Source: Chloroflexota bacterium
GTDB lineage: Bacteria > Chloroflexota > Anaerolineae > Promineifilales > Promineifilaceae
Assembly: GCA_008501785.1 (NCBI GenBank)
Contig: QQUD01000925.1
Location: 1 to 7,365 of the forward strand
Direction of reading: 5' to 3'
DNA: 7,365 nt
This document shows, piece by piece, positions 306-7,317 of the stretch (its first letter is position 1; the number at the start of each line of letters is the position of its first letter). The notes below the pieces were generated by a model. That model did no database searches and was not told the origin of the DNA. It worked only from the letters and a program-made list of their open reading frames with translations. Both the position numbers and the translations under genes were made by a program.

Positions 306-1508
306 TCAAGATGCTTGTAATAAAGCAGAACGCCGTTTTGAATACCAAATGGTAAGATAAGTTGTTAGGAGTGTGAGAAGGGGAATAACGGCCGTAAACG
401 TAGCTGAAGCACGCTGCATGGCAACATCAAACATCAACCAGGGCAGCACCATAATACATGTGACCCAGATTGCGCTTGCAAACCATCTGCTTTTTTGTCG
501 CAGTGTATAAAAGATGAACATCCAGGGGATTAGCAGCAGCAGATGCTCGTATTCCCATGCATAAGGCGTGGTTAGAATAGAAGCCCCCAGTGCCAGCGAT
601 GTTGCTTCATACAATGTGAGATTTTTATTGAATACCAATAACCACCCTAGCACAATCGTAATGATGATTAATAAAAGCAATCCTGTCACTGCCCACCAGT
701 TTGGCGTCAATTCATAGGCCAATCCCCAAATAGTAGGGGTGATTTGCGTGACCTCAGTTTTTCCCGTGACATTAAACCACTGAAATAGCCATCCGGGAAT
801 CGTTATCCAACTGATTAAAAATAAGGTGGCTGCGCCAGTGATAGCGCCAAGAATGATCTGCCATTCGCGTCTCGATAGCAGCCAGACACCAAATAAAGGC
901 ACAAATAAGATAAATGGATTTGGCTTAAAGGCAACACATGCCAGCACAAGCCCAGCGGCAAACGGCCGTTTTCTATACACTAAAAACATAAAAAGGGCCA
1001 AAATAAACAATAACTCAAACGTTAGCTGCCCTACAAACAGAGTTAATACACCCCCTCGATACAAAGCAGCTCCTAGTGCCAATAGAAAAAATTCAATGAG
1101 AGAGAGTCGGAGATGATTGAAAATTTTTCCTAGAAAAAACGAAGCGCCAACCAACATGTACAGTGAAAATGCGACCCACGTGGCTGCACCCCACCCTAAA
1201 TCTAAAATTGAGAATGGCAAAAAGAAAAGCAATGTCCAAAGCGGAAATGGCTCTCGGCTGTCTGGAACCCACGTGTTGCCTAAACTGATGCGCCACGGAC
1301 CCCATACGTCAGGATCGTATGGGTTAAGCCCAGCAATGACTGCTTTTCCACCAGCCCATAAGCTAACAAAGTCACGATCATCATATCGGTGAGGTCCCGT
1401 TAGAAACCGATAATTTATCCATGAAAGCCCAGCGAACATGACAATGGCAATCAAAACCATCAAAATCAAACGCATCTGATTAGAGCTATTTCCTGCTTTC
1501 TTCTGCAT
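306..1508 (-). CDS. GT87/DUF2029 family polytopic membrane glycosyltransferase
   Basis: The 400-residue protein is very hydrophobic, with roughly 10-12 membrane segments (for example about 13-32, 107-125, 158-177, 217-239, 273-293, 322-336, 343-360 and 370-388). Family marks are the first outside loop DRDFVSLWAGGKAVIAGLNPYD (residues 44-65, in two runs here: DFVSLWAGG and GLNPYD), a KPNP motif near 195-198, and TPYAWEYEH near 314-322. GT87 enzymes such as mycobacterial PimE transfer a sugar, usually mannose, from polyprenyl phosphate on the outer face of the membrane. The Asp in the first loop (D46 or a neighbour) is the candidate catalytic base. The substrate here is unknown. Start ATG 1508-1506 overlaps the upstream kinase stop by one base (TAATG), and a GGGAGGA ribosome site lies inside the kinase gene about 11 nt upstream. 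It is the last gene of the polysaccharide cluster. Family call is fairly sure; the exact reaction is inference. Confidence 0.8.
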   Translation of the reverse strand: MQKKAGNSSNQMRLILMVLIAIVMFAGLSWINYRFLTGPHRYDDRDFVSLWAGGKAVIAGLNPYDPDVWGPWRISLGNTWVPDSREPFPLWTLLFFLPFSILDLGWGAATWVAFSLYMLVGASFFLGKIFNHLRLSLIEFFLLALGAALYRGGVLTLFVGQLTFELLFILALFMFLVYRKRPFAAGLVLACVAFKPNPFILFVPLFGVWLLSRREWQIILGAITGAATLFLISWITIPGWLFQWFNVTGKTEVTQITPTIWGLAYELTPNWWAVTGLLLLIIITIVLGWLLVFNKNLTLYEATSLALGASILTTPYAWEYEHLLLLIPWMFIFYTLRQKSRWFASAIWVTCIMVLPWLMFDVAMQRASATFTAVIPLLTLLTTYLTIWYSKRRSALLQAS

Positions 1509-2155
1509 TAACTATAATATCCTCCCACCACGCTGTCGCGTTGTGCATTGGTCAGCGTGGCCCCCACAATTCGAACTTTTGCTTTTTCCAGCGTGTCCTT
1601 GGCGCGTTCGGCATGGTCACGTTTGGTCTTGCCTGCGTTAATGATCAACAAAACGCCATCTACTTTTGCACCTAAAACGGCCGCATCCGTCACCGCAATC
1701 ACAGGCGGTGCATCAAACAAAACGATGTCCGCCTGTTCTGCAAGTGTGTTGATAATCTGATCCACTTTTTTGCTGCCTAGTAAATCGGCTGGATTAGGTG
1801 GCAATGTGCCCGCTGACAGTAGCGATAAGTTGTCAATGCTGGTTTGTTGTAGGGATGGTCTCCCATTTTCTTCCAAGATCGCGTTCGTGAAACCCGGTTC
1901 TGGTTGTAAGTTGAACAGGGCGTGCAAAGACGGCCGTCTTAAATCACAATCCACCAAAATCGTGCGATTACCACCCTGGGCCATCGTCACCGCCAAATTG
2001 GCAATCGTTGTGCTTTTTCCCTCATCCGTCGCCGCTGACGTTACCACCAACGTGCGAATCGGGTTATCCAAACTGTAAAAAGACAAATTTGTTCGTAAAG
2101 TACGGTACGCCTCACTCACTGGTGAACGTGGGTCAGTCAAAGTTATTAAGTCCAT
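1508..2155 (-). CDS. CpsD/CapB/Wzc-type bacterial tyrosine kinase (polysaccharide co-polymerase ATPase)
   Basis: This 215-residue cytoplasmic P-loop ATPase has the full BY-kinase signature. The activator-docking motif SEAYRTLRTNLSF lies at 14-26, the Walker A variant SAATDEGKST at 40-49, Walker A' ILVDCDLRRP at 66-75, LSAGTLPPNPADLLGS at 113-128, and Walker B VLFDAPPVIAVTDA at 145-158. The length suits a stand-alone CpsD rather than the fused Wzc form, and the matching membrane partners are encoded just upstream. Such kinases autophosphorylate a C-terminal tyrosine cluster and thereby tune polymerisation and export of capsule or exopolysaccharide. Here the cluster is reduced to the tail GGYYS (Y213, Y214). 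Start ATG 2155-2153 has an AAAGAG site 6 nt upstream. The last codons also carry the Shine-Dalgarno of the next gene. The ATPase family is secure; true tyrosine-kinase activity is less certain because of the short tail. Confidence 0.9.
   Translation of the reverse strand: MDLITLTDPRSPVSEAYRTLRTNLSFYSLDNPIRTLVVTSAATDEGKSTTIANLAVTMAQGGNRTILVDCDLRRPSLHALFNLQPEPGFTNAILEENGRPSLQQTSIDNLSLLSAGTLPPNPADLLGSKKVDQIINTLAEQADIVLFDAPPVIAVTDAAVLGAKVDGVLLIINAGKTKRDHAERAKDTLEKAKVRIVGATLTNAQRDSVVGGYYS
1513..1530 (-). promoter_or_regulatory. Shine-Dalgarno for the GT87 gene embedded in the kinase tail
   Basis: On the minus strand the codons for G-G of the kinase tail (GGA GGA) form GGGAGGA together with the preceding base, about 11 nt before the GT87 ATG. 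The kinase stop and the GT87 start share one base. This supports both the chosen start and coupled translation. Confidence 0.7.
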
Positions 2156-2167
2156 AGGTTACTCTTT

Positions 2168-2249
2168 TTGAGTGGATAATTATTAGTGATAAGTGGAAAG
2201 CCTTCCCTTTGAATGACTAATCACTATCCACTTTCCACTATCCACTAAT
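2168..2249. repeat. 7-bp tandem arrays in head-to-head orientation, spacer between the kinase and second Wzz-like genes
   Basis: At 2215-2249 five consecutive heptamers follow the form SACTWWY (GACTAAT, CACTATC, CACTTTC and so on). At 2168-2195 units such as ATTAGTG and ATAAGTG are the same heptamer on the other strand. The two blocks can pair: 2184-2200 with 2231-2247 matches at 14 of 17 positions around a 30-nt loop. The array fills the spacer of 100 bp between the two genes, leaving only the kinase ribosome site outside it. No T-run follows on either strand, so it is not an ordinary terminator. Confidence 0.8.
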
Positions 2250-2255
2250 TATTTC

Positions 2256-2906
2256 TTATTGCCCTGGAATACTCCCAATCACCGGGATATCCAAATACCG
2301 TTCCACATCTTGCGTGCGGCGCATCACACCAGATTCAATCCACTCCAGCGCGAAAATAATAATAATGCCCAACAATGCGCCAAAAACAGCACCAGCGGCT
2401 GTGTTAATTGTTGTTTTCGGGCTGTCTAAACTTGGTTTTGGATTGTCTTGGAATGAAATCGTGATCCGGTCTTCTTGTCGATTTTGGTCATTTTCAAATT
2501 GCTGATCTTGAATAAGCAAATTTCCCCAGGCAATTGCAATATCACTGGCTACCGCTGGGCTGCTGTTTTTCACAGAAATTGTTACCTTTCGTTGCAAATT
2601 GTCTGATGCAAAGGCAACATCACCAAGCAGTTCATCGGCAGTTAAATCTAGTTCCAGCGAATTAATTACTTCCTGAGCGCGAAACGAGCTGTTGAGCCAT
2701 GCTTCATAGCTGCCTAACAGTTCGACAACTGCCTGCGTTTGCCCAAAATCGGTCCGTGCTGGGCGTACCAGCAAATTCAGCTGTGATTCGTAGATTTCAG
2801 TTTGCATTCTGCTGTAGCCAAAGGTGGCGGCAGCGGTAAGAACGGCCGTTAACACAATAATCCAGCCCCGCTGCCGCAAAATGCGTAAATAATCACTTAA
2901 TTCCAC
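2256..2906 (-). CDS. Wzz/CpsC-type chain-length determinant protein (second of two)
   Basis: With the GTG start at 2906-2904 the protein has 216 residues. GTG is preferred over an in-frame TTG at 2930 for three reasons. GAGGAG sits 6 nt before the GTG. The resulting N-terminus MELSDYLRILRQRGW matches the neighbouring paralog MELRRYWQIFLRRW. The TTG lies inside a tandem repeat. Topology is the classic co-polymerase plan: TM1 about 14-30, an external alpha/beta domain to about 165, a proline-rich segment NPKPSLDSPK at 155-164, TM2 about 168-187 with small residues, and a cytoplasmic tail ending IPVIGSIPGQ that would contact the kinase. It should sit in the cytoplasmic membrane and set polymer length together with the CpsD-like ATPase encoded next. 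Spacers on both sides hold 7-bp arrays. Length is normal for the short CpsC/YveK-like class. Confidence 0.85.
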   Translation of the reverse strand: MELSDYLRILRQRGWIIVLTAVLTAAATFGYSRMQTEIYESQLNLLVRPARTDFGQTQAVVELLGSYEAWLNSSFRAQEVINSLELDLTADELLGDVAFASDNLQRKVTISVKNSSPAVASDIAIAWGNLLIQDQQFENDQNRQEDRITISFQDNPKPSLDSPKTTINTAAGAVFGALLGIIIIFALEWIESGVMRRTQDVERYLDIPVIGSIPGQ

Positions 2907-2920
2907 GCTGTACTCCTCGT
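2907..2920 (-). promoter_or_regulatory. Shine-Dalgarno that decides the GTG start of the second Wzz-like gene
   Basis: GAGGAG on the minus strand lies 6 nt before GTG 2906-2904. No comparable site precedes the alternative TTG at 2930, which sits inside the 7-bp array. Confidence 0.7.
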
Positions 2921-2921
2921 T

Positions 2922-2963
2922 AATTGTCAATTGACAATTGCCAATTGATAATTGTCAATTATT
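2922..2963. repeat. 7-bp tandem array AATTGNC, six units, between the two Wzz-like genes
   Basis: Six contiguous heptamers start at 2922, 2929, 2936, 2943, 2950 and 2957. Each begins AATT, and the first five read AATTG followed by TC, AC, CC, AT, TC. Units AATTGTC and AATTGAC are reverse-complement-related through the shared CAATTG core, so the array is also locally palindromic. Its end contains the stop codon of the first Wzz-like gene, and its beginning lies 15 bp upstream of the GTG start of the second. Confidence 0.85.
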
Positions 2964-3624
2964 TTTTGGGGATTTCGCCTAAAACTTCAAACCCCATCTG
3001 TTCAATCTCTTCCCGGTCGCGCATCGTTGGGTCTAAATATTCGGCTAATAATGCCAGCCCGATGCCAGCGACGAGCGCCAACCCAACCCGCAGCGGCAAA
3101 TCTAGCTGGCTGCGAATGCCGGTGGGAATCTGGTTCACAATTGGCTCATCGACGAGAACGAGAACGGCCGTTTCACCCCCCAACTGCGGCAAAGCATTCT
3201 GCTCAGTCACCACCACAATCACCGCACCCATCATCGCCGCCAGGGCATCTGGGTCGTTGTGAGACATGGAGAGTTGCAGCTTGCTGCGCACATTGTCGGC
3301 CACAATGCCAATCGCGCCAGCCGGGATATCATACCCTTGTTCGGCGAGTTGGGCAGAAACGGCCGTTTTAAACGTATTGCCGCTCACCCAATCAGCCAAC
3401 CCATTCACAATATATTCCGAAGTCAGCCACGCATAATATCGTTCCTGGTCTTCAGCAGCAGCAGCAGCGGAGGGTTCTTGACTGACAATAAAGTTCACAC
3501 CCACGGTGTAAGCCGGTGGTGGTGTCTGATATGTTGCCAACCCAATAATCAGCACAATGGCTGTCGGGATCGCCACATACAGCCAGCGCCTCAAAAATAT
3601 TTGCCAATATCGTCGTAATTCCAT
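2959..3624 (-). CDS. Wzz/CpsC-type chain-length determinant protein (first of two)
   Basis: This 221-residue protein has TM1 about 15-32, an external domain from about 33 to 175, TM2 about 177-194, then a cytoplasmic tail EYLDPTMRDREEIEQMG followed by FEVLGEIPKK. That tail is the usual 'yldp-irt-ee-ie-lg-pvLG-iP' ending of Wzz/Wzc co-polymerases. The proline-rich box before TM2 is weak (only IPTG and LDLPL). A run of five alanines (53-57) in the external domain is encoded by five identical GCT codons. The gene starts one nucleotide after the TAG of the glycosyltransferase upstream (TAG-T-ATG) with no strong ribosome site, so translation is probably coupled. Its stop codon lies inside the 7-bp array that separates it from the second paralog. 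The two paralogs share topology and N-terminal pattern but little else by eye. Confidence 0.85.
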   Translation of the reverse strand: MELRRYWQIFLRRWLYVAIPTAIVLIIGLATYQTPPPAYTVGVNFIVSQEPSAAAAAEDQERYYAWLTSEYIVNGLADWVSGNTFKTAVSAQLAEQGYDIPAGAIGIVADNVRSKLQLSMSHNDPDALAAMMGAVIVVVTEQNALPQLGGETAVLVLVDEPIVNQIPTGIRSQLDLPLRVGLALVAGIGLALLAEYLDPTMRDREEIEQMGFEVLGEIPKK

Positions 3625-3625
3625 A

Positions 3626-4732
3626 CTAAACTACTTTTAAATGCCCTTGGTGCTGATCAAACTTCTCTTCGATAAATGATTTCATTTTTTGTTGGAAAAC
3701 GGCCGTATCAAACTGCTCCGCATGATGACGAATCACCGCATTATTAACCCTTGCTGCATCGAAAGATTCAACAGCGTCGATAATAGCATCAACCGTTTGT
3801 TCCGTAAACAAAACGCCGGTGCCGGGAATTACAGTTTCCAATGCGCCGCCACCCGCATAGGCAATCACGGGTCTCCCCGCTGCCATCGCTTGAATGGGCG
3901 CGATGCCGAAATCCTCTTCACCTGGAAACATAAAAGCACGGCAGCGGGCAATCATGTCCGGTAAATCCTCATCAGGCACGTAGCCTAAAAATTCGACGGT
4001 TGGACCAGCCAATGCCTGCAACCGTTCTTTGTCACGACCGCTGCCTGCGATGCGTAACGGCCGTTTCATTTTGTTAAACGCTTCAATCAGTAAATCAAGT
4101 CGCCGATAAGGAACCAACCGCCCCACGAACAAATAATAATCCTCAACGCGATTCGAAGGTTCAAAACGAGTTGTTTCCACCGGCGGGTAGATAATAGTCG
4201 ATTCGCGTCGGTAAACCTTTGCGATTCGCCGACGGATTTCTTCCGAAATGGCGATGAAATGGTCAACCCTATCTGCTGCCAACCGATCCCATTGGCGCAA
4301 TAACGTTAGAAATGGTGGTAAAATGCGTCGCGTCATCCTGCCTAACTGCTCTTGTTCAGCGTATTGAAAATAGCGCCACACGTACCGGGTTGGTGTTAAA
4401 CAGTAACAAACATGCATCGTCTCTGGCCCAGAAATAACCCCATGACAAAACCCGCTTTTATTGCTTAAAATAACATCATATTTACTGAAATCAAACTGTT
4501 CAAATGCAAATGGATAGAGCGGGAAATAGAGCTGCTGCTTTTTATGTGCCAATGGCATTCTGTCAATAAACGATGTGCGAATATCCCAGTTTTGCCAGTG
4601 GTCCGGCATCCTGTCTTGCCAATAGAGGGATGTAAAAATAGGGGAATTGGGGTAGAGGCTGACAAAGTTTTCCAGCACATCTTCAGCCCCTCCCAATTGA
4701 TTGAGCCAGTCGTGAACGAGAGCAATGTTCAT
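3626..4732 (-). CDS. GT4 family glycosyltransferase (WbaZ-like, GT-B fold)
   Basis: This 368-residue cytoplasmic enzyme would transfer a nucleotide-sugar-derived residue, possibly mannose, to a growing lipid-linked glycan. The N-terminal domain starts with MNIALVHDWLNQLGGAE, the strand and glycine loop typical of GT4, and carries VCYCLTPTRYVWRY at 108-121, characteristic of WbaZ-like members. The donor-binding domain begins near 200 with YLFVGRLVPYRRLDLLIEAF (200-219), then RIAGSGRDKERL (227-238), VEFLGYVPDEDL, FPGEEDFGIAPIQAMAAGRP (269-288) and VIAYAGGGALETV. The usual E-x7-E donor motif reads E273...Q281, so the second glutamate is glutamine. Start ATG 4732-4730 directly follows a 7-bp tandem array and has no recognisable Shine-Dalgarno. 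The 3' end is 1 nt from the next gene. Family call is strong; sugar and acceptor cannot be read from sequence. Confidence 0.9.
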   Translation of the reverse strand: MNIALVHDWLNQLGGAEDVLENFVSLYPNSPIFTSLYWQDRMPDHWQNWDIRTSFIDRMPLAHKKQQLYFPLYPFAFEQFDFSKYDVILSNKSGFCHGVISGPETMHVCYCLTPTRYVWRYFQYAEQEQLGRMTRRILPPFLTLLRQWDRLAADRVDHFIAISEEIRRRIAKVYRRESTIIYPPVETTRFEPSNRVEDYYLFVGRLVPYRRLDLLIEAFNKMKRPLRIAGSGRDKERLQALAGPTVEFLGYVPDEDLPDMIARCRAFMFPGEEDFGIAPIQAMAAGRPVIAYAGGGALETVIPGTGVLFTEQTVDAIIDAVESFDAARVNNAVIRHHAEQFDTAVFQQKMKSFIEEKFDQHQGHLKVV

Positions 4733-4737
4733 AGTGT

Positions 4738-4779
4738 CAGTAATCGGTAATCCGTAATTGGTGGTCGGTAATCAGTGGC
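4738..4779. repeat. 7-bp tandem array CGGTAAT, six units, directly upstream of the GT4 start codon
   Basis: Six contiguous heptamers start at 4738, 4745, 4752, 4759, 4766 and 4773: CAGTAAT, CGGTAAT, CCGTAAT, a diverged TGGTGGT, CGGTAAT, CAGTGGC. The array begins 5 bp upstream of the ATG of the glycosyltransferase gene (minus strand) and ends 9 bp from the inverted-repeat element. Confidence 0.85.
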
Positions 4780-4788
4780 TGGAAGAAT

Positions 4789-4868
4789 GTCATTCCGAAG
4801 TCCTCTGAGGAATCCCTACGATCTGTGCGGTAAAGATTTTGGGATTCCTCGGCGGACCTCGGAATGAC
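4789..4868. mobile_element. Inverted-repeat element with 28-bp arms (MITE/REP-like), GTCATTCCGA ends
   Basis: Left arm 4789-4816 and right arm 4841-4868 are reverse complements at 25 of 28 positions, around a 24-nt centre. The outer ends read GTCATTCCGA and TCGGAATGAC; the inner ends read GAGGAATCCC and GGGATTCCTC. It lies in the spacer between the PspA-like and GT4 genes and carries no coding sequence of its own. Elements with GTCATTCCGAGG...AGGAATC arms are familiar to me as dispersed palindromic repeats in several bacterial phyla. As RNA it would form a strong hairpin after the PspA-like stop, but no T-run follows, so a role in termination or message protection is only possible. Confidence 0.8.
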
Positions 4869-4901
4869 GATTGCGAAGGCAAATGATAATCTCCGACGAC
4901 C

Positions 4902-5957: not shown

Positions 5958-7310
5958 CTAATCCATTATGACGGGCAAGAAGAGCATATATGGGCAATGG
6001 AAAGTTGTGGCAAATGTTGGTTGTGATTGAATGGTGGTATCTACAATAGTAGATGTTGTGTCTTCAACAACAATTGCTGAATTTTCAATAGTAATAGCAA
6101 CATTCATAAGACCAAAGTCGATATTCTGGCTAATTTGACAATCACTAATGCCTGCTTCTGTAATTTTCATTACTAAGCCACCCAAGCCACCATTATCATC
6201 TACAAATGGAAGAGCGCTACCCGTTACTATAAGCCCACCATCAGATGCAACCGTAATGTCTCTTAAAATGGGATATCCTGCATAACTTTTTTGCCAAACA
6301 AGGTCTCCATTTGAGGATAATCTGACAATACTGCCAGCCGTTGTCATTACATAATCACCGTTTTCTGTTTCTTGAACTGCTGAAATGAAACCATTATCTG
6401 TGTTGCTGAACTGTTTTTGCCAAACGGATGAACCATTAGTATTTAATTTGGCAACCCAAGGTTTAAAAGCTCCTTGACCTGCAATGATAAAGCCACCATC
6501 ACTTGTTTCTTGAATAGCATAAGCAATATCCACTCCTGCACTAGTGTATACTTTTTGCCATATGACATCTCCCTTGCTGTCCAATTTCAATAGCCAACTA
6601 TCATCGATATTGATTAAGGGAATGCGCCCCACAATGACAAAACCTCCATCACTCGTTTCATGCAAATCATAAATGCGGGTGATGCCCACACCATTGATGA
6701 TTTTTTGCCAAATCATGGAGCCGTTACTATTTACTTTAAAGACCCACGCATCGTAGTCACCGGCACTAATAACAGATTCATGCCCAATGACTACAAACCC
6801 ACCATCCGCTGTCTCACGCACATTAACCGCAACCTCCACTGTGGATCCCATATCATATGTTTTTTGCCATGAAACACCACCATCTTGATCCACTTTTACC
6901 ACCCAAAAATCACTGTAGGCCCCCAAAGGGGTGTTGGCCTTTTGACCAACAATGATGTAGCCATGATCGCTTGTTTCTTGAACCACCCGAAAGTTACTTC
7001 GGTTTATATCTCCATATGCTTTTTGCCACATAGTTGAGCCATTTTGGTTAAGTTTTAAAAGCCAGCCAGCGTCTGCACCTGTAATGGGATGGCTTATTTC
7101 ACCAGCAAGTATGTAACCACCATCATTGGTTGGTTGGATAAAATAAAATTCATTACTGCCTTCATTACGATATATGGTTAGCCATTTGTCATTTAAAGTA
7201 TGAGTAAGCGGTGTGTACAGGCTGCTATGTAAGCGGGCGCTATTTGATGTGGTTGTGTTTTTTGCACGGCAATCAGGATCTGATGTATAGACATTGGGTG
7301 TTTGCGCCAT
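5958..7310 (-). CDS. Seven-repeat WQK/DGG protein, probable beta-propeller of unknown function, with Chloroflexota-like LPxI tail
   Basis: The start is the ATG at 7310-7308 (450 residues); a TTG lies just before it, and an in-frame TGA prevents longer versions. Seven imperfect repeats of about 42-53 residues each carry 'QETsDGGfiiaG', then 'D.WllKLdsnG..iWQKvy'. The strand Trp occurs about every 50 residues (near 43, 95, 148, 201, 251, 297 and 339 from the ATG), which suggests a seven-bladed propeller (inference). Similar 'ETSDGGYIVAG ... WVLKLDxNGxVxWQK' proteins are common hypothetical secreted proteins. A Ser/Thr/Val/Ile-rich tail follows, then the end CPYMLFLPVIMD, like the short hydrophobic LPLI/LPVI tails I associate with Chloroflexota exported proteins. 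No signal peptide is seen at the N-terminus (AQTPNVYTSDPDCRAKN). The gene is AT-richer than the polysaccharide cluster and lacks its ACGGCCGT octamers. No enzyme motif is visible, and the function is unknown. Confidence 0.75.
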   Translation of the reverse strand: MAQTPNVYTSDPDCRAKNTTTSNSARLHSSLYTPLTHTLNDKWLTIYRNEGSNEFYFIQPTNDGGYILAGEISHPITGADAGWLLKLNQNGSTMWQKAYGDINRSNFRVVQETSDHGYIIVGQKANTPLGAYSDFWVVKVDQDGGVSWQKTYDMGSTVEVAVNVRETADGGFVVIGHESVISAGDYDAWVFKVNSNGSMIWQKIINGVGITRIYDLHETSDGGFVIVGRIPLINIDDSWLLKLDSKGDVIWQKVYTSAGVDIAYAIQETSDGGFIIAGQGAFKPWVAKLNTNGSSVWQKQFSNTDNGFISAVQETENGDYVMTTAGSIVRLSSNGDLVWQKSYAGYPILRDITVASDGGLIVTGSALPFVDDNGGLGGLVMKITEAGISDCQISQNIDFGLMNVAITIENSAIVVEDTTSTIVDTTIQSQPTFATTFHCPYMLFLPVIMD

Positions 7311-7317
7311 CAACTTG

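Follow-up and report, generated by a model that had tools for sequence, protein, structure and literature searches.

Palindromic elements with seven-nucleotide units as a possible source of the periodic arrays in a Chloroflexota operon

The window, by which we mean the whole 7,365-nucleotide stretch of Chloroflexota DNA analysed here, carries an operon in which three spacers each hold a tandem array with a period of 7 bp, and the repeated unit differs from spacer to spacer. The question is what could produce one period with different sequences in the same kind of place. The genes concerned all lie on the minus strand. A P-loop ATPase gene (1508..2155; Pfam ParA/CbiA/AAA_31) is downstream of spacer 1, and its product is probably BY-kinase-like, judging from its place beside Wzz, an adjacency also found in relatives. 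The gene for Wzz-like chain-length protein 2 (2256..2906; Pfam Wzz) sits between spacers 1 and 2. The second Wzz-like gene of the operon, here Wzz-like 1 (2959..3624), had no Pfam match at E 1e-5 and is putatively Wzz-like from its position. A group 1 glycosyltransferase gene (3626..4732; Pfam Glycos_transf_1) lies next to it.

Spacer 1, from Wzz-like 2 to the BY-kinase, holds a heptad array at 2212..2253 (minus strand), which is the 5' G-rich arm of a hairpin in the coding-strand reading, and inverted heptads at 2168..2200 (minus strand), which make up the 3' arm with several shifted pairing registers. The AATTGNC heptads of spacer 2, from Wzz-like 1 to Wzz-like 2 (2919..2960, minus strand), are self-complementary and overlap the TAA stop codon of the upstream gene (2959-2961). 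Spacer 3, from PspA to the glycosyltransferase, contains single-arm heptads (4737..4778, minus strand), recognised by lag-7 score and shuffles, and this array ends 4 nt upstream of the glycosyltransferase ATG. The same spacer has a separate palindrome with 28-nt arms (4789..4868, no strand assigned), which is not heptad-phased. Its arms, 4789-4816 and 4841-4868, are 89% complementary, and a search among plasmids found no relative of the palindrome at 4780-4872.

Tandem Repeats Finder reported period 7 in all three spacers: 3.7 copies with 89% matches at 2222-2247, 5.6 copies with 81% matches at 2922-2960, and 4.9 copies with 70% matches at 4740-4773, each with 0% indels. The lag-7 scores were 17.5 (2919-2960), 16.5 (2212-2247) and 10.0 (4737-4758). 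Order-2 Markov copies of the window, 300 in all, gave a maximum lag-7 score of at most 13.0 and a third-best of at most 8.0. The third array is the weakest, matching itself at 24/45 positions at lag 7 and at 24/38 at lag 14 (lag-14 score 10.5), and its score was reached in 0/5000 base shuffles of that spacer. The Markov copies and the spacer 3 shuffles rule out a chance origin, and the three arrays described in the earlier note are therefore real. That note called them strictly periodic, which is true of the phase and not of the sequence, since the units match at 70-89%. The inverted units that it saw in spacer 1 are also genuine: positions 2178-2200 pair with 2231-2253 at 83% complementarity, besides four other, partly overlapping pairings. 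As RNA, spacer 1 folds at -26.4 kcal/mol (z -3.5) and spacer 2 with a z of -3.2, while spacer 3 (z -0.5) shows no hairpin.

We then turned to relatives, found via the glycosyltransferase 3626..4732 (the proteins of L001-L020 are 67-80% identical). The sample comprised 26 related Chloroflexota genomes with 2.08 Mb in total, and the window's own genome lies outside it. These genomes are metagenome-assembled stretches of 17-421 kb each, so that "no array" means none within the stretch seen. For gene calling we used a simple purpose-built hexamer model, which makes the coding and non-coding labels approximate. Two stretches (L074 and L126) were dropped as duplicates, and L085-L108 were excluded from density counts. 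Two runs of N were removed from the 22 period-7 matches of one scan and also lie within that scan's counts for other periods. Twenty stretches of genome G010 were selected for lying around matches to a single hairpin. G010 is thus oversampled, and these stretches enter the enlarged G010 spacer count, the overall stem, array-pair and stem-polarity counts, and a Fisher test.

Period 7 dominated in the relatives, and the view of the arrays as a single class with varying units is supported. Among non-coding arrays of the 26 genomes, 127 had period 7 and 45 period 8, against 1-4 for periods 6 and 9-11. The 127 arrays comprised 65 distinct units. Period-7 arrays were present in 16/26 genomes and absent from the stretches seen of the other 10 (about 0.59 Mb). 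Among 532 stems with arms of at least 15 nt, in which G010 is oversampled, the best period was 7 in 97 and 8 in 44, and any other in at most 8. Since some relatives bear arrays and others show none in their stretches, the group lends itself to comparative tests of what sets the 7-nt step, what spreads the elements, and how they affect operons and proteins.

A plain tandem array proved to be an incomplete description, as heptads often make up the two sides of a hairpin stem. Among the 69 pairs of neighbouring arrays, 56 were inverted, 6 direct and 7 unrelated. The elements are hairpins of the form [unit]n-loop-[inverted unit]n, with heptad arms whose 10th-90th percentile range is about 16-31 nt, and spacer 3 is a single-arm version. 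Arms matched their own partner better than arms swapped within the family (0.947 vs 0.915; 18 higher and 7 lower of 26; p 0.0014). This better pairing might equally come from selection on pairing.

The units were not independent of each other. Identical units made up 10.7% of within-genome element pairs and 0.8% of between-genome pairs, a difference reached in 0/2000 label permutations. Since units recur within a genome and differ between genomes, the elements disperse. Units are thus not invented afresh in each spacer. One hairpin of genome G004 had 37 other matches within that genome, while in G010 another matched 84 times over about 40 sites (sites counted by hand). The commonest unit accounted for 7/17 elements in G004 and 7/14 in G011, beside several unrelated units. 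The recurrence of units within genomes means that purely local slippage from random seeds cannot account for everything.

Turnover was followed in the congeners G017 and G002. Across L204, L193 and L140 we compared 19 array sites, 10 of which had a clean G002 orthologue. In the reverse direction 6/23 sites had one, and these were mostly identical to the forward-direction sites. Further comparisons covered L140 56-113, L002 9931-9990 and a single site from a different palindrome family. We observed a length difference of one 7-bp unit at an orthologous site, different units occupying one orthologous site (L204 12669-12741), and presence or absence of an element in a T-box leader. One array of 32 nt, or 47 nt when the adjoining bases are included, was identical in both congeners amid flanks that are 86-90% alike, which could reflect constraint.

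The arrays were about 33 times denser outside called genes. Confinement to intergenic sites was not borne out, as 29/156 arrays lay in called coding sequence and one octamer hairpin extends the stem of a T-box leader. In-frame arrays were found in carB, in an isoleucyl-tRNA synthetase gene and in membrane proteins, and the in-frame carB hairpin aligns opposite 11 gap residues of PDB 1bxr_A. Such hairpin-encoded peptides may be passengers and not domains, which calls for caution in annotation. Internal coding arrays fell in multi-TM proteins in 21/41 cases, yet they came from only 10/26 proteins (hand count), so the binomial p makes this link look stronger than it is.

Arrays occurred in 75/777 tandem, 20/156 convergent and 5/169 divergent spacers. 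The expected numbers are 66.1, 12.0 and 21.9 by base pairs, and 70.5, 14.2 and 15.3 by number of spacers. Divergent spacers are depleted more strongly when counted by length (5 vs 21.9, p 5e-6) than when counted by number (5 vs 15.3, p 0.002). The depletion is weaker still in the enlarged G010 sample, which centred on a single family of hairpins (48/343 tandem, 4/60 convergent, 6/55 divergent).

With moderate confidence, we propose that these are dispersed palindromic repeats with 7-nt, less often 8-nt, arm units, made by slippage and fold-back and kept where they are harmless. Slipped-strand replication would gain or lose units in 7-nt steps. Fold-back template switching may copy one arm from the other and so maintain the palindrome, and ectopic copying could seed an identical unit elsewhere in the genome. 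Copies would persist where the added sequence does no harm, as in non-promoter spacers, peripheral RNA stems and protein loops. The arrays of the window would then be passengers of an exopolysaccharide-type operon, probably without a conserved regulatory role. Slippage alone leaves unexplained why the steps are 7 and 8 and not 6 or 9. Loss of the hairpin nuclease SbcCD is not supported as a required condition, because 13/16 array-bearing genomes have SbcD above cut-off, as do all 10 others. The three genomes in which SbcD fell short (G010 and G024 with no match, G003 below cut-off) all bear arrays.

An alternative that we regard as unlikely is that whole REP-, MITE- or RPE-like elements are mobilised in trans by a transposase and that the heptads simply happen to be their sequence. 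The copies are indeed dispersed and palindromic, lie in tandem and convergent spacers, and are sometimes in frame in genes. In the available part of the source, REPs occupy unidirectional and convergent gene gaps (PMC3733652), and RPEs are likewise described as inserting in frame (PMC10969869, available part). Some loops of one G004 family, ACGCACC, are partly alike (TTTAGT, TTCAGT, TCCAGT), which would fit whole-element copying. Among 19 other copies of two families, however, loops and flanks vary and no shared ends were seen, both judged by eye. Three of the ten G004 copies among these 19 matched in one arm only. A single genome also carries several unrelated units. Y1 transposase counts were somewhat higher in array-bearing genomes (p 0.016; 26 of 30 genomes searched), but array-rich G010 has one Y1 match of 31 bits, and G026 has three yet no array in 60 kb. 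A RAYT/Y1 transposase as the sole agent is therefore not supported.

A broader reading, which we advance very tentatively and consider quite unlikely, is that a general bacterial process with a 7-nt, sometimes 8-nt, step writes units and folds hairpins independently of sequence at any tolerant site, and that STRR, TAACTGA and the Nostoc P6b repeats, together with these Chloroflexota elements, are its products. If this reading were true, the process would act in spacers and RNA stems and also in frame in essential enzymes, and the step would be a physical property of one enzyme.

Decidedly doubtful is a role as functional RNA hairpins in operon mRNAs, serving stability, partial termination or translational coupling, with the structure selected and the sequence drifting. 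Hairpins in tandem spacers start a median of 7 nt past the stop codon and end a median of 28 nt before the next start, divergent spacers hold fewer elements, and shuffled versions of window spacers 1 and 2 fold less well than the originals. For REPs, too, an RNA nature has been argued on the grounds of location and G-T pairing (PMC3733652, available part). But in the tandem-spacer stems G-U was not in excess over A-C on the sense strand (69 vs 64 for period 7, 47 vs 47 for period 8), which gives no sign of selection at the RNA level. A T-run (at least 6 T in the next 8 nt) followed only 2/76 heptad and 2/37 octad stems, and intrinsic terminators are rejected as a general account. Moreover, similar elements lie within coding sequence, and the orthologous Wzz2-BYK spacers in L013, L016, L018, L019 and L020 are too short for a hairpin or have none.

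It is highly improbable that units of 7 or 8 nt are synthesised at DNA ends by a templated enzyme, either a reverse transcriptase or some unusual polymerase, and then fold back. Such an enzyme would suit the sharp 7/8 size class. The G-rich arm is 5' in 118/134 periodic stems vs 230/333 non-periodic ones (ties left out), and it comes first in array pairs by 50:3. The same polarity, however, is seen in non-periodic stems of array-free genomes (18:6), and is thus partly general to hairpins in these genomes. Reverse transcriptase matches were more numerous in array-bearing genomes (p 0.0013, uncorrected for kinship, genome size and split genes), but G014, a genome of uncertain completeness, has arrays and no such match, and one template would not readily yield several unrelated units in a genome. 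Phased binding sites for a protein array can hardly be the explanation: the phase in the window is exact and the units share a post hoc bias, NRNNRRT (46/65 vs 27.8 in letter shuffles), but cross-validation bears this bias out weakly (median z 1.65, range -0.32 to 4.29) and it is not relied on as a universal unit grammar, units differ at orthologous sites, and arrays also occur within protein genes.

How do the dispersed palindromic heptad repeats that we favour compare with known systems? The analogy drawn in the earlier note was with STRR, the heptamers of filamentous cyanobacteria. It is apt: in both cases, as far as the available part of the source describes them, several different heptamer units occur in one genome (Calothrix heptanucleotides, as cited in PMC4692102). 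The relatives likewise carry head-to-tail 7-nt units, mainly non-coding (127/156), in 16/26 genomes. Heptamers have been reported to outnumber other longer simple repeats in most of the bacterial genomes surveyed, and the length of DNA that the polymerase holds has been proposed as the cause (PMC4679880, PMC4692102; available parts of both). TAACTGA repeats, found in Beggiatoaceae, Cyanobacteria and Bacteroidetes, are similar in forming mainly intergenic heptamer arrays, of which a genome has many, with 2-6 units each in the main genome and some arrays in ORFs (PMC4679880, available part). They have one favoured unit and are nearly all direct, with one inverted among 170 sets (same part of PMC4679880), whereas the Chloroflexota elements have many units, mostly inverted pairs and no single favoured unit per genome. 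In the same phylum, the Chloroflexus aurantiacus satellites (GATAGRA)n are scattered heptamer arrays, but of one unit in one species, and the available part of the source does not mention palindromic pairing (PMC6749651).

Among dispersed palindromes, REPs also lie between co-directional and convergent genes (PMC3733652, available part), and we found the same preference over divergent spacers, weaker in the biased G010 sample. Unlike REPs, the arms here are heptad arrays and G-U is not in excess. Rickettsia palindromic elements are likewise in frame in metabolic genes, but measure about 150 bp and carry a conserved peptide, as opposed to arms of about 16-31 nt with variable units (PMC10969869, available part). 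The Nostoc tRNA-Leu intron P6b, with its Class I TDNGATT and Class II NNTGAGT heptamers, resembles our elements in having heptamers in both hairpin arms, as in the 56/69 inverted pairs and spacer 1 of the window, though not spacer 3. It also shares length steps of 7 or 14 nt, replacement of the unit class at one site and a variable stem in a structured RNA. As described in the available part of PMC4476775, P6b is one cyanobacterial site, whereas here the class is dispersed genome-wide in Chloroflexota, in spacers, a T-box stem and proteins. In the Chloroflexota genomes, then, period 7 occurs together with hairpin pairing, spread through the genome and exchange of units at orthologous sites.

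We confirmed the 7-bp-periodic arrays that the earlier note had described in three operon spacers of the window, and at lag 7 they stood out against simulated copies of the window. The minus-strand genes encode a PspA-like protein, a group 1 glycosyltransferase (GT), two Wzz-like proteins, a P-loop ATPase and a GT87 protein; one of the two Wzz-like proteins had no Pfam match. On the coding strand, the spacer between Wzz-like 2 and the P-loop ATPase, a putative BY-kinase (BYK), reads as a direct array and then an inverted one. Its best arms (2231-2253 and 2178-2200) are 83% complementary, with four further pairings shifted along the array, and the fold has an energy of -26.4 kcal/mol (z -3.5). 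The Wzz1-Wzz2 spacer also folds (z -3.2). The PspA-GT array was the weakest of the three, its score was not reached in 5000 shuffles of that spacer, and the spacer showed no fold beyond shuffles (z -0.5).

The PspA-GT spacer also carries an imperfect palindrome with 28-nt arms at 4789-4868 (GTCATTCCGAAGTCC...GGACCTCGGAATGAC), for which no relative was found among plasmids. Upstream of the PspA gene lies a 451-aa ORF (5958-7313) that repeats internally (WQK...DGG) and matches no Pfam family at E 1e-5. Another palindrome, ACGGCCGT, occurs nine times in the window against 0.06 expected, mostly within genes (388, 962, 1930, 2842, 3164, 3359, 3699, 4057 and 5184). Of the 26 related genomes, 15 carry it at 1.06-2.20 per kb and two, G004 and G010, at 0.01 per kb; its frequency does not follow the heptad arrays. 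The motif is similar to the HIP1 palindrome of cyanobacteria.

Using the window glycosyltransferase as a query, we collected 20 Chloroflexota loci (67-80% identity), assigned to Anaerolineae, Anaerolinea, Anaerolineaceae, Ardenticatenaceae or Chloroflexi, and then used their genomes. Four remoter loci were also found, of which L022 alone served as a small control. The gene set PspA-GT-Wzz1-Wzz2-BYK was complete in 10 of the 20; the others end at a contig edge or miss one or two genes. When orthologous spacers were compared side by side, a heptad array or hairpin was often present across species, with a different unit each time. The Wzz2-BYK spacer has GAACAGT in L010, TTCAGTT in L017, GATTAGA in L009 and TGAACCG in L003, while in L013, L016, L018, L019 and L020 it is too short for an array or hairpin, or has none in place. 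Octads replace heptads in the Wzz2-BYK spacer of L008 and the Wzz1-Wzz2 spacer of L017. Between L003 and L014 (78% identical), the Wzz2-BYK array is recognisably homologous, with the period largely gone in L014.

Non-coding tandem arrays were then counted in 2.08 Mb from 26 genomes. Period 7 was found in 127 arrays and period 8 in 45, against 1, 4, 1 and 1 for periods 6, 9, 10 and 11; periods 14, 16 and 21 (66, 35 and 36 arrays) were treated as largely multiples of the 7- and 8-nt arrays. Heptad arrays were present in 16 genomes. The ten without one (G013, G015, G016, G018-G022, G026 and G032; about 0.59 Mb in total, 17-200 kb each) serve as a control for the array-finding method, and G013 and G026 have one octad array each despite lacking heptads. 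The octads form a second, smaller class, also in hairpin arms (G010/G011 stretches L045-L064, L008, L009 and L017). With one genome oversampled in both counts, the best arm period among the 532 stems whose arms reach 15 nt or more was 7 in 97 and 8 in 44 (at most 8 for each other period from 4 to 12), and neighbouring arrays formed 69 pairs, 56 of them inverted, 6 direct and 7 unrelated. The window's 7-bp arrays are genuine and part of a wider class.

The expected dominance of the 7-bp class thus held in the relatives, but its confinement to intergenic sites did not, since arrays also occur in a T-box leader and in genes. Array density is about 33 times greater outside called genes than inside. 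In array-bearing genomes, arrays occupied 75 of 777 tandem, 20 of 156 convergent and 5 of 169 divergent spacers, against 66.1, 12.0 and 21.9 expected by spacer length (divergent deficit, binomial p 5e-6) and 70.5, 14.2 and 15.3 by spacer number (p 0.002). The contrast was weaker in an enlarged G010 sample of stretches picked around one hairpin family (48/343, 4/60 and 6/55). In tandem spacers the heptad and octad hairpins start at a median of 7 nt past the stop and end at a median of 28 nt ahead of the next start. A T-box leader of G017 (Rfam RF00230, 94.8 bits, gathering score 93) contains an octamer hairpin in the helix immediately 5' of the antiterminator; the stem at that place is short in the orthologous leader of its congener G002 (104.3 bits). 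A second hairpin, of heptads, follows the G017 T-box and has no counterpart in the aligned G002 sequence.

Well within called genes we found 41 heptad or octad arrays. Of these, 21 are in proteins predicted to have four or more membrane windows, against 16% of coding bases, though the 21 come from only 10 of 26 proteins. The hairpin in carB of G011 is in frame, with 2 + 9 gap residues in the alignment to PDB 1bxr_A (E. coli CarB). An array in the isoleucyl-tRNA synthetase gene of G017 lies opposite 1 + 5 gap residues. The carA array aligns nearly gap-free, which argues against an insert and for a replaced linker. The densest cluster seen, L204 6056-19999, has 11 heptad or octad array sites, 9 within ORFs, across consecutive large genes for membrane proteins, one of them with a PMT glycosyltransferase match.

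Over aligned stretches, identity between G017 and G002 is mostly 80-94%. Among orthologous sites, the two copies of one hairpin are exactly one 7-bp unit apart and one 32-nt array is identical; beside the latter, the (ACTTGCA)n of G017 corresponds in G002 to a short stretch resembling octads plus other sequence. Where G002 has its PspA-GT hairpin, G017 has sequence unrelated to it, and a membrane-protein site with conserved flanks has a GATTGGA hairpin in G017 and a CGACCAC array, 33 nt shorter, in G002. Length differences from G002 at the L204 in-ORF sites (0, 9, 0, 33, 36, -9 and 0 nt) are all multiples of three, as is a 24-nt difference at an array viewed from G002. At L204 sites 19510 (equal length), 12898 and 17933 the G002 copy falls below the array threshold. 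Both genomes also carry many copies of a distinct dispersed palindrome of about 80 bp (GCGGATT.../...AATCCGC; for example L140 15312-15436 and L002 1472-1555).

Loss of SbcD, part of the hairpin nuclease SbcCD, is not required for arrays, since SbcD was above cut-off in 13 of 16 array-bearing genomes (and 10 of 10 others; 26 genomes counted). Purely local birth from random seeds would not produce the unit sharing seen within genomes: after merging elements within 1 kb (93 elements), two elements of one genome had identical units in 10.7% of pairs and two elements of different genomes in 0.8%, and none of 2000 label permutations was as extreme. One G004 hairpin had at least 37 other matches (40 of 312 first-look candidates scored). 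Another, in G010, had at least 84 at about 40 sites (40 of 384 scored), a count that includes the query and, for many hairpins, both strands. By eye, the 19 other copies compared share unit and architecture and differ in loops and flanks; in another G004 family several loops are alike.

Retention of the hairpins as RNA predicts more G-U than A-C pairs on the transcript. No excess was seen in tandem spacers (69 versus 64 for heptads, 47 versus 47 for octads), and a T-run followed the stem in 2/76 and 2/37. Arms matched their own partner better than arms swapped within the family (0.947 versus 0.915; 18 of 26 higher, 7 lower, p 0.0014). Template switching, in which one arm would be copied from the other, would explain both the missing G-U excess and the better own-arm match; one report proposes that such switching creates and maintains hairpins (PMC8794818). 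Matches to Y1 (IS200-like) transposase (30 genomes counted, p 0.016 over 26 of them) and reverse transcriptase (26 genomes, p 0.0013) were more numerous in array-bearing genomes, with clear exceptions and with kinship, genome size (p 0.051) and split matches uncontrolled.

The literature covered, which largely excludes subscription papers, yielded no earlier account of heptad-phased hairpins for Anaerolineae, which does not prove that none exists. The arrays are best explained as dispersed palindromic repeats that have a 7-nt internal phase, turn over fast and are retained where harmless. Chloroflexus aurantiacus has heptamer satellites (PMC6749651), REPs are similarly located (PMC3733652) and RPEs likewise have in-frame copies (PMC10969869). 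TAACTGA repeats are closest in genome-wide intergenic placement; however, they favour a single unit and are almost never paired in inverted orientation (PMC4679880). Closest in form is the P6b stem of the Nostoc trnL intron, with heptamers in both arms and the unit class swapped at one site (PMC4476775).
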